Positions 19,322 through 21,171 of a stretch of DNA of 64,000 nt are shown one piece after another. The DNA lies in the NCBI GenBank assembly GCA_020073305.1, contig JAIQFK010000001.1, positions 186,001 to 250,000 of the forward strand, written 5' to 3'. The translations under genes were made by a program, and so were the position numbers. The notes under the pieces are model-generated. The model made no database searches. It worked only from the letters and a program-made list of their open reading frames with translations, and had not been told where the DNA came from. Source of the DNA: Terriglobia bacterium (GTDB taxonomy: Bacteria > Acidobacteriota > Terriglobia > Bryobacterales > Bryobacteraceae). Each line of letters begins with the position of its first letter. Positions within the stretch are counted from its first letter, which is position 1.

Positions 19322-20002
19322 GTGCGTCCCATCATCCTGGTTTCGACGTGCCTGCTACTTGCAGGTTGCAGCCGTGAACGGCCGAAGGCGCCTGAGCAAG
19401 AACCGCCGCCCGAGCGCGAAATCCTTCCGGCCGCGGCTCAAGCGCCCGACCCGCGGCCAACCGTCGTGGCCTTCGGAGACAGCCTGTCAGCGGGGTTCGG
19501 CGCCGATCCCGGCAAGAGCTATCCGGACTTTCTGCAGAAGGAGATTGATGGCCGTGGTTACCATTATCACGTTGTTAACGCCGGCGTGAGCGGCGATACA
19601 ACCACTGATGGCCTGGAGCGCGTTGGCACCGTGACGGCGCTCAAGCCCTCCATCGTGATCGTCGAATTTGGCGGCAACGATGGACTGCGCGGGCTGCCGG
19701 TCGGCACCACGCGCGCCAACCTGGAACAGATGATTCTCGCCTTAGAGAAGGCTGGCGCGAAAGTCGTGCTGGCAGGTATGACGCTTCCACCGAATTACGG
19801 CCCCGACTACATCCGCTCGTTCGAGGCCGTGTACCGCGATCTCGCCAGGCAGTACCGGCTGCCCTTGCTTCCGTTCCTGCTGCGCGGGGTTGGCGGCCAT
19901 GCGGACCTGATGCAGCGCGACGGCATTCATCCCACCGGGGAAGGCAATCGCATTGTGGCGCAAAATGTGATCGAGACCCTTAAACCACTGTTGCGCAAGT
20001 AG
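19322..20002 (+). CDS. tesA: GDSL/SGNH lysophospholipase-arylesterase (TesA-like lipoprotein)
   Basis: A 226-residue protein from GTG 19322. A lipoprotein signal ends in the lipobox LAG-C16. The SGNH blocks are complete: block I VVAFGDSLSAGFGADPGKSY with the catalytic serine, block III IVEFGGNDGLRG, and block V RDGIHPTGEGNRIV with the Asp-His pair. In E. coli tesA (acyl-CoA thioesterase I/protease I/lysophospholipase L1) is divergent from ybbA-ybbP exactly as here. This supports a joint role in lipid or acyl-chain turnover in the envelope. Anchoring as a lipoprotein differs from the soluble periplasmic E. coli enzyme. Confidence 0.85.
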   Translation: MRPIILVSTCLLLAGCSRERPKAPEQEPPPEREILPAAAQAPDPRPTVVAFGDSLSAGFGADPGKSYPDFLQKEIDGRGYHYHVVNAGVSGDTTTDGLERVGTVTALKPSIVIVEFGGNDGLRGLPVGTTRANLEQMILALEKAGAKVVLAGMTLPPNYGPDYIRSFEAVYRDLARQYRLPLLPFLLRGVGGHADLMQRDGIHPTGEGNRIVAQNVIETLKPLLRK

Positions 20003-20009
20003 GCCGCTG

Positions 20010-20729
20010 CTAACGTTGGGCGGTCTTGACACCTGGCGCCACGCGCTCTAGCGCCGACCTTAGCTCGCCCGGGTGGAATCCGAAAGGTCCCGGTCCGCTT
20101 TTGTAAGCGACGCGCCCGTCGCGATCAATCAAATAGAGACGGTCCGGCCACCCCGTGTACGCAGATTCAGTCGTATTCTCTGCGCCGTCGACCAGGGCCG
20201 GGATCTCAATTCCGAGCTTGCGCACGCAAGATGAAGCCACCGTTCCCCGCTCTTCAAAGGTGCGCGGCGTGGCGACCGAGACGTTGCCGGCCAGCCGCCA
20301 GGAATCGCTGGCATGGGCTTCCTGGATGTAGACAACATAGAAAGCCACGCGATCTTTATACTCCCGGTACAGCTTGTTGAGCGCGGGAACCTCCCGGCGA
20401 AAGGGTGGTCAAGTATAACTGCCGAAGACTAGCGCCACGGGCTTCTGGCCGCGAAATGACGCAAGTTGGACCATTTCCTGGCTGTGCAACACAGGCAGCC
20501 GGAAGTCGGGTGCCATGTCGCCGGGCCTGAGGTGGCCGGCGCGGGCGAGCATCATCAACGGCCCGATCGGCACCACCATGAACAGCATGCCGGGTTTCTC
20601 GGAGGTTGGCAGCTTTGCAATGACGGCAGCGAAGCGCGCCGGGGGCAGGGAAACGACGATCCAAACCACCGCGGCCAGCAACAGATAGGCGGTGAAAAAG
20701 CCGATCAGGATCTTCTTCCACAGCTTCAT
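20010..20729 (-). CDS. Deiodinase-like thioredoxin-fold selenoprotein (in-frame TGA read as Sec)
   Basis: One 239-residue frame from ATG 20729 to 20010, interrupted only by TGA at 20409-20411. The first 106 codons encode a membrane anchor (KKILIGFFTAYLLLAAVVWI), a linker and PGDMAPDFRLPVL leading to VALVFGSYT. Then come TGA and PPFRREVPALNKLYREYKDR. Downstream is FYVVYIQEAHASDSW, and the fold ends with RLYLIDRDGRVAYKSGPGPF. The TGA sits exactly where iodothyronine deiodinases have selenocysteine (GSCTUPPF), and YIxEAHxSDxW is the deiodinase histidine motif. A SECIS-like hairpin follows the TGA. It is probably a membrane-bound thiol/selenol redox enzyme; true deiodination is not implied. No selA, selB or selC is in this window. 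Confidence 0.85.
20382..20399 (-). promoter_or_regulatory. SECIS-like hairpin after the selenocysteine TGA
   Basis: On the coding strand, read as RNA, CGC-C-GGG-AGGUU-CCC-GCG folds into a stem with three G-C pairs, one bulged C and three further pairs, capped by the loop AGGUU. Sixteen bases separate the UGA from this loop. E. coli fdhF has 17 bases and the SelB-recognised loop AGGUCU. The match in distance and loop bases supports selenocysteine insertion. It was folded by eye only. Confidence 0.65.
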
Positions 20730-20748
20730 GCTTGAATGGAATTACACC

Positions 20749-21171
20749 ATGCCCCCAGAGTCGCCGGCAACTGACACGATCTATTACGATGGCCACTGCG
20801 GCCTGTGTCATCGCTGGGTGCGATTCGTCGTGGCTGTGGATCGTGACGGCCGTTTGTTTCGATTTGCCCCTCTCGCCGGCGAGACTTTTCAGGCTAAGGT
20901 GCCGCAGAGCGCCCGGGCCGGGTTGCCGGACAGCGTGATCCTGCAGACTGCTGACGGCTCTCTCATGGTCCGTTCCGACGCGGTCGTCTGTATCCTGCGC
21001 CGGTTAGGCGCCGGCTGGTGGGCTCTTGGCGCGGCCATCCATCTGATTCCCCGGCCGGTTCGCGATGGCGCGTACGATTGGATCGCACGCATGCGGACGC
21101 GCTGGTTTGCCCCTCCGGCAGGCACTTGTCCGGTGATGCCTGCCGAACTCCGAAAACGCTTTGATCCCTAG
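20749..21171 (+). CDS. Thiol-disulfide oxidoreductase DCC family protein (DUF393)
   Basis: A 140-residue protein; ATG 20749 is chosen because an earlier ATG overlaps the divergent selenoprotein start. The DCC hallmark is present as YYDGHCGLCHRWVRFV, with a thioredoxin-like CxxC at about residues 18-21. Later VRSDAVVCILRRLG and a C-terminal MRTRWFAPPAGTCPVMPAEL complete the family pattern. It is divergent from the selenoprotein gene with only 19 bases between the start codons, so two redox-type genes share one promoter region. Confidence 0.85.
   Translation: MPPESPATDTIYYDGHCGLCHRWVRFVVAVDRDGRLFRFAPLAGETFQAKVPQSARAGLPDSVILQTADGSLMVRSDAVVCILRRLGAGWWALGAAIHLIPRPVRDGAYDWIARMRTRWFAPPAGTCPVMPAELRKRFDP

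Follow-up and report, generated by a model that had tools for sequence, protein, structure and literature searches.

A deiodinase-like selenoprotein gene of a Bryobacteraceae bacterium with a predicted helical partner cysteine

Deiodinase-like proteins of bacteria, in selenocysteine (Sec) and cysteine forms, were reported from the Sargasso Sea in 2005, and a non-thyroid, redox function was suggested for them (available part of PMC1088965). The GOS survey of 2008 listed 22 deiodinase-like proteins and tabulated their motif as "-" (available text of PMC2398784); the tables of two reviews give UxxC for the family (available text of PMC13188914 and PMC9312934). The literature cited here gives the bacterial selenoproteins no tested function. 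The word "deiodinase" is absent from the available text of PMC1794560 and PMC12013277, both of which mention Acidobacteria. In the literature on bacterial deiodinase-like proteins, Solibacter, and selenoproteins of Acidobacteria, no title or abstract start reported the subfamily or the helical partner cysteine described below; figures and most subscription papers lay outside the scope of this search.

For the animal enzymes, the accessible part of PMC11592359 proposes a DIO2 proton relay of Ser127, Thr129, Tyr157, Glu160, His162, and His182, and a substrate clamp in which DIO3 Arg275 is equivalent to DIO2 Lys241. The same text places the resolving cysteine of Ahp1 peroxidases in an insertion that matches the Dio2 insertion. 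In DIO1, Cys124, two residues before Sec, bonds residue 126 and is needed for glutathione recycling, whereas the distal Cys194 had no role that could be found (available part of PMC9141512).

The gene and its family

The window, which is the whole 64-kb stretch of DNA that was analysed, carries on its minus strand a frame of 239 codons running from an ATG at 20729 to a terminal stop at 20010, with a single in-frame TGA at codon 107 (Table 1). A first-pass annotation had described two halves of one gene that share a frame and are split only by a TGA, and this is borne out on the minus strand, a strand that it had not specified; the plus strand of 20010-20729 has no selenoprotein reading. Both motifs that it had picked out, FGSYT-TGA-PPF and the downstream YIQEAHASDSW, are found in the minus-strand translation, the former within VFGSYT-TGA-PPFRREV. 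It had also anticipated that automatic annotation would split the gene, and table 11 ORF calling does yield a 106-aa ORF (20409-20729) and a 112-aa ORF (20010-20348). Because such a call severs the gene at the TGA, genes of this kind are readily overlooked.

Table 1. Positions of the selenoprotein gene, its predicted elements, and the divergent neighbour in the window
Feature	Position	Strand	Basis or remark
Deiodinase-like selenoprotein gene	20010..20729	-	239 residues, counting the TGA as Sec107
In-frame TGA, predicted Sec codon 107	20409..20411	-	one-frame reading and homologue alignment
Cys168 codon (conserved cysteine on a helix, candidate resolving partner for Sec107)	20226..20228	-	position calculated: 20729 minus 3 x 167
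Predicted N-terminal membrane anchor, residues 3-26	20652..20723	-	model helix and flanking charge
bSECIS-type hairpin, 7 pairs as modelled	20382..20398	-	comparison of 77 TGA homologues
Hairpin core	20396-20392 paired with 20388-20384; loop GGU 20391-20389	-	comparison
DCC1-like (DUF393) thiol-disulfide oxidoreductase gene, divergent	20749..21171	+	ORF list and Pfam

On the plus strand, the end of a GDSL hydrolase gene is 7 bp away from the stop of the selenoprotein gene. On the other side, 19 bp (20730-20748) lie between the start codon of the selenoprotein gene and that of the divergent DCC1-like gene if the ATG at 20749 is used. A scan of 19950-20900 found no sigma-70-like promoter, and terminator-like sites in this interval numbered 3 versus 1.1 in shuffles. 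Rfam and tRNA scans of the 64-kb window gave no matches.

The product matches Pfam T4_deiodinase (PF00837) at 117.5 bits, against a cut-off of 27 (E = 7.7e-34). Its best PDB matches were DIO3 and DIO2, both by sequence (5.2e-23 and 1.3e-20) and by profile search (6.7e-34 and 1.4e-31). An AF2 model built from 77 sequences (mean pLDDT 91.2) has a helix at residues 3-26, which is the predicted N-terminal membrane helix of the domain layout, and a thioredoxin-type domain, the thioredoxin/peroxiredoxin-fold region spanning about residues 64-235. When the model was compared by Foldseek and VIA-align, DIO2 (Z 21.6) and DIO3 (Z 21.4) ranked first, with the next row at Z 18.1. The earlier assignment to the deiodinase-like family thus stands, and the product is very probably a member of the known family PF00837.

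With the bacterial deiodinase-like selenoproteins of 2005 and 2008, the gene has in common PF00837, a Sec codon with a bacterial SECIS, and the existence of Cys homologues (available parts of PMC1088965 and PMC2398784). That such selenoproteins occur in some bacteria, as the first-pass annotation stated, has been reported since 2005; within the order, homologues are common, and other phyla have them too. Against the UxxC that the two reviews tabulate for the family, the subfamily of the window gene has YT-U-PPF, a motif without cysteine, together with a helical Cys168; earlier sequences may belong to this subfamily as well. NCBIfam NF038285 and the TPR-fused Cys homologues share the C-terminal domain with the gene product. 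The product scores 190.1 bits against NF038285, under the cut-off of 250, as do two TPR-fused homologues (152.8 and 154.1 bits); the TPR-fused proteins have Cys (SYTCPNFR) where the product has Sec, and the Cys homologues possess the equivalent of Cys168. The thioredoxin fold is also common to ResA/TlpA oxidoreductases and AhpE/Tpx peroxiredoxins, but these are weaker fold matches (Z about 18 for ResA and AhpE, about 18 or below overall), and in contrast to them the product has no active-site CxxC and has a YIxEAH loop.

Predicted decoding of the in-frame TGA

The first-pass annotation had asked for selA, selB, selC, and selD in the genome, and all four were found. In the host genome (G000, 99.89% complete), selA (508 bits), selB (359 bits), and selD are above cut-off, and a tRNA-Sec with anticodon UCA is present. 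The genome also holds a paralogue (L061, C4:355983) that is 53% identical and has the TGA as well.

Homologues at E <= 1e-20 occur in 99 of the 257 genomes of the order. We read 91 loci, which represent 90 distinct places since the host paralogue was counted twice; 29 of the 119 match rows, lower-scoring ones, are not among them. Of the 91 loci, 78 have a TGA context at the Sec site (77 distinct), 11 have a Cys codon, one has GGA (L090), and the remaining one (L105) has TGA with a frameshift directly behind it. The 11 Cys homologues, which the first-pass annotation had proposed to look for, are all long forms. None of the 91 loci has TAA or TAG at residue 107, and among the 29 rows outside this set, two list an internal TAA/TAG in matches lying downstream of that residue. 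The annotation had named TAA/TAG codons or frameshifts in close homologues as evidence against its reading; the frameshift seen among the loci read, just after the TGA, is that of L105.

A wider scan found 342 genome stretches that matched our patterns. Relatives are encoded by 315 of them, from which the best 80 were retained. Record titles assign 62 of these 80 to Acidobacteriota, 11 to Planctomycetota, two each to Chloroflexi and Deltaproteobacteria, and one each to Armatimonadetes, Binatia, and "Nevskia soli". The Sec site is TGA in 79 and GGA in one, but because the scan is biased to close relatives these counts are no census of Sec versus Cys. Alignment A3 omits L149, L165, L175, and L181; in five of its rows there is one more TGA, which was likewise translated as Cys.

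If the TGA were an ordinary stop, arising from a pseudogene or a sequencing error, the two ORFs would be fragments or separate genes. The L105 frameshift right after the TGA and the GGA of L090 would fit such decay. However, the TGA lies at the identical residue 77 times in 75 genomes, similarity continues across it in most order-level matches, and a conserved helix follows it. We therefore regard an ordinary stop as extremely improbable, and the 77 conserved sites together with the covarying helix led us to reject it. We conclude that UGA107 is almost certainly read as selenocysteine in a real selenoprotein gene, as judged from sequence comparison.

At E <= 1e-60, selA was found in 71 of the 75 genomes with a read TGA context versus 137 of the 182 others (Fisher p = 1e-4, uncorrected for relatedness or incomplete genomes). 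The four TGA-context genomes lacking a selA match all have selB above cut-off. Because selA is widespread in the order (208 of 257 genomes) and occurs in all 11 genomes holding the Cys forms read, this co-occurrence is modest evidence only.

The hairpin with an AGGUU loop that had been noted near the TGA is present as CGGG-AGGUU-CCCG, with 16 bases between TGA and loop. Folding, the check proposed for it, does not support it: as a single sequence the region shows no excess stability (z = 0.04, with 98 of 200 shuffles folding as well), and the MFE structure chooses another pairing. Comparison of homologues does support it, with the core recovered in 72 of 77. The single-sequence fold being unremarkable, the case for a SECIS element is one of comparison only.

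This comparison used alignment A1, which holds 77 sequences without gaps from the TGA onward and excludes L105 (frameshift), L090 (GGA), and L030 (the same place as L061). Columns 16-20 pair with columns 24-28 around an apical GGU in which G21 is invariant, so that the core begins at the 13th base after the TGA in these 77 TGA-bearing homologues of one order. The complete five-pair core can form in 72 of the 77 sequences, compared to a mean of 1.0 and a maximum of 5 in 200 synonymously recoded sets, for which codon usage came from long ORFs of the window picked by length and uncurated. Directly behind the loop, 70 of 77 sequences encode Val by GTT, although GTT makes up 15% of Val codons in the long ORFs of the window. 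Among the 70 distinct rows, 47 cells changed on both sides versus 8.7 +/- 2.3 in shuffles, and the covariation score was 0.335 versus 0.082. Sliding the partners by -1 was a close control for pairing (77.1% of cells paired versus 80.6%) and lowered covariation to 0.212. The outer two pairs of the modelled hairpin form in 24 and 27 of the 70 rows and, in fixed register, do not form in the window gene. A second clade has a reversed stem, GGUCCCA-GGU-UGGGACC, and in the host paralogue A20 is changed to C together with U24 to G, which entails a Glu-to-Ala and a silent Val change. The full five-pair core is retained by just one of the 12 Cys and Gly forms, namely the Gly form.

A model of the element, with which 150 of 8724 first-look candidates in the host genome were scored, gave 66 and 65 bits for the two deiodinase-like genes, both being in its training set, and 22.3 bits for the next match. 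In the wider 80-locus set, the core helix is found in fixed register in 66 loci (GGA locus included), and a free search, performed without a control, gave shifted or shorter helices in the other 14. These comparisons support a predicted decoding of UGA107 by SelB and tRNA-Sec(UCA) under the SECIS hairpin.

In four loci from Planctomycetota and Chloroflexi records (L188, L190, L197, and L200), the hairpin is seemingly shifted by about 4-5 bases and has GG-containing loops, again without a control. At L090 (the same site as L165), a Gly codon, GGA, replaces the TGA and the SECIS helix is fully intact, either because Sec was lost recently or because the sequence is in error. In L105 the frame shifts after TGA-PPF, within the region of the active site, which points to either an assembly error or a decaying gene.

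Active site and partner cysteine

Relay and clamp roles were carried over by alignment from the available text of PMC11592359, the position of DIO2 His182 being counted along the alignment. Five relay residues are invariant in the 77 Sec forms: S104, T106, Y134, E137, and H139, equivalent to DIO2 S127, T129, Y157, E160, and H162. In contrast, the DIO2 His182 position (155) is Pro in 60 and Ala in 17 of the 77, the DIO3 Arg275 position (213) is Pro in 68, Ala in 8, and Val in 1, and the proximal-Cys position (105) is Tyr in 74, Phe in 2, and Leu in 1; the window gene has Pro155, Pro213, and Tyr105. Mouse DIO2 has Ala at the proximal position, so a proximal Cys is not universal in animals. A distal Cys at position 176 was found in no bacterial row of the comparison alignment, being present in DIO2 and DIO3 only. 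Within the wider 80-locus set, position 213 is Arg in three loci outside the order (L179, L183, and L188) and Lys in two (L190 and L195), His155 occurs in L144, and six loci have His at the proximal position.

The product thus resembles DIO2 and DIO3 (9h48, 4tr3) in best sequence and fold match, in U-PPF, and in the five relay residues; the animal enzymes are membrane proteins (PMC11592359, available part), as the product is predicted to be. It differs in lacking the proximal and distal cysteines (DIO1 Cys124 and Cys194), DIO2 His182, and the Arg275/Lys241 clamp, and in having a hairpin of bacterial type within the coding region. Since the relay residues are kept while the hormone-binding and known resolving residues are absent, only the chemical core appears deiodinase-like. 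With the hormone clamp not kept, thyroid hormone is not expected as a substrate, and the window gene product is probably not a thyroid-hormone deiodinase but an enzyme with a different job.

A selenoprotein with this core could still be a true reductive dehalogenase, Sec107 stripping iodide, bromide, or chloride from aromatic halides in the manner of animal deiodinases, with environmental halophenols as substrates. DIO2 and DIO3 are its closest solved relatives in sequence and fold, the T-U-P motif and the five relay residues occur in 77 of 77, and some loci outside the order have the Arg213, Lys213, or His155 listed above. Against this, the His182, Arg275, and proximal-Cys positions are all substituted in the 77 order-level Sec forms, the distal Cys is missing from every bacterial row compared, and the AhpE and ResA folds match well too. 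We consider a dehalogenase unlikely, though worth keeping in mind.

Cys168, located in helix 158-172 of the AF2 model, is present in all 77 Sec forms and all 11 Cys forms of the order-level set. It is also present in 79 of the 80 genome_contigs loci, which partly overlap that set; the exception, L195, has Met168 and Cys169. Across 104 Sec rows, which come from overlapping sets and include some identical rows, exactly one Cys lies between five residues before Sec and the C-terminus in 91. The partner site is helical (168 or 169) in 93 rows, in the loop in 4, and proximal in 3, with 4 having none, and no row has Cys at two of the three sites.

A phylum-wide search with PF00837 was positive in 27 of 396 genomes and included proteins of other types. 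GSFT-U proteins (L201-L204) have a cysteine in the substrate loop (VCY) and no Cys168, with an extra Cys at 187 in L202; the Ahp1 resolving-Cys insertion described in PMC11592359 resembles this loop-type site. GSCT-U-PPF proteins (L206, L211, and L214, from f42, a different family of the phylum, L214 being incomplete) have a single Cys two residues before Sec, placed as in DIO1 and DIO3, and no Cys168. We infer that the selenenyl intermediate would be resolved by one partner cysteine whose location varies by subfamily. On this comparison, the helical Cys168 subfamily is an addition to the known family, distinct and common, with a differently placed putative partner cysteine, and so are the sister subfamilies that have this cysteine at other sites.

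Alternatively, the selenoprotein may run a 1-Cys-type cycle, with Sec107 resolved by an external thiol and Cys168 serving a structural role. Cys168 lies outside any CxxC-type motif, and 4 of the 104 Sec rows lack Cys at every one of the three partner sites. However, a lone conserved Cys in a mostly Cys-free domain, placed elsewhere in other subfamilies, argues for a catalytic role, and we judge the 1-Cys cycle rather improbable.

Predicted mechanism, surroundings and relatives

For the 36 homologues aligned from near their starts, the mean net charge is 2.7 before the first helix and 0.9 after it, being greater before the helix in 27, equal in 7, and lower in 2. This mostly higher charge before the helix suggests an outward-facing domain. 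Signal-peptide-like starts, judged by eye, are present in 9 of the 11 Cys-type homologues.

Taking sequence, model, and charge together, we think that a membrane-anchored, outward-facing Sec107-Cys168 redox enzyme is the probable identity of the product, held with some reserve. One N-terminal helix would anchor the protein so that its thioredoxin-fold domain lies outside the cytoplasm. The substrate attacked by Sec107 would be oxidised or halogenated, and Sec107 would then be resolved intramolecularly by Cys168, located on the helix that follows the substrate loop, in the manner of an atypical 2-Cys peroxiredoxin. In Tpx peroxiredoxins the resolving cysteine lies on a helix. A membrane or periplasmic thiol system would re-reduce the enzyme. 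Likelier substrates than thyroid hormone are peroxides or environmental organohalides, with peroxide/thiol redox placed first. Counting against the Sec107-Cys168 mechanism are the Met168/Cys169 of L195, the 4 of 104 Sec rows with no partner-site Cys, and the finding that the 89 loci have no conserved gene neighbourhood indicating a substrate or reductant. A well-bounded subfamily with a single conserved partner Cys offers a clean biochemical test of both function and selenenyl resolution.

The neighbourhood set comprised 77 Sec loci, 11 Cys loci, and a single Gly locus, with contig ends truncating many of them, and no neighbour family was seen in more than 11 of the 89. At E <= 1e-5, the DCC1-like and GDSL neighbours of the window gene had no match beside the other 88 loci. 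Because the DCC1-like gene was not found beside the homologues read, we do not count it in the system and draw no function from it.

In a tree that omits 35 close rows and 3 near-duplicates, DIO2 and DIO3 group with eight Acidobacteriota proteins (GSCT, GSFT, and L205) with a split of 100/96, the branches placing them being long. AU tests rejected none of the alternatives, whether DIO lay outside this group (p 0.51), with GSCT (p 0.63), or with the far group (p 0.42). Two of these constrained trees had a higher likelihood than the unconstrained one, which shows that the unconstrained search had missed the optimum. It is a speculative and rather doubtful idea that the family keeps one catalytic Sec but has its resolving Cys in at least three places (helix, substrate loop, and two before Sec), that Acidobacteriota genomes thus hold living stand-ins for steps between a peroxiredoxin-like selenoenzyme and the animal deiodinases, with GSCT-U proteins as the closest bacterial kin of the animal enzymes, and that the family acts on organohalides. 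The sister subfamilies whose partner cysteine is placed differently, including one with the animal position, offer a route to the origin of animal deiodinases.

The Cys-type homologues (L110-L120, with L115 incomplete) have SYTCPNFR/CPKFR-like motifs. Pfam scans identified three of them (L111, L116, and L117) as TPR proteins with a C-terminal deiodinase domain; those not scanned were judged from their starts.

Carriage on a mobile element was considered and rejected: 14 viral_contigs stretches matched the pattern and none encodes a relative. A search of phage DNA gave no match. Four plasmid records match at 24.5-34.1% identity and are annotated as ResA, TlpA family, or deiodinase-like protein, or are unannotated.

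Other in-frame TGA codons were seen in the host genome. The SelD gene (L016, C36:17276-18199) has one of its own, within VKAAGUASKLS, so SelD itself is probably a selenoprotein. A TlpA/ResA-like domain at C26:194326-194682 (L243) contains WAEWUSFC, a UxxC motif; its TGA is in frame, the open frame around it is long, and the protein is possibly another selenoprotein.
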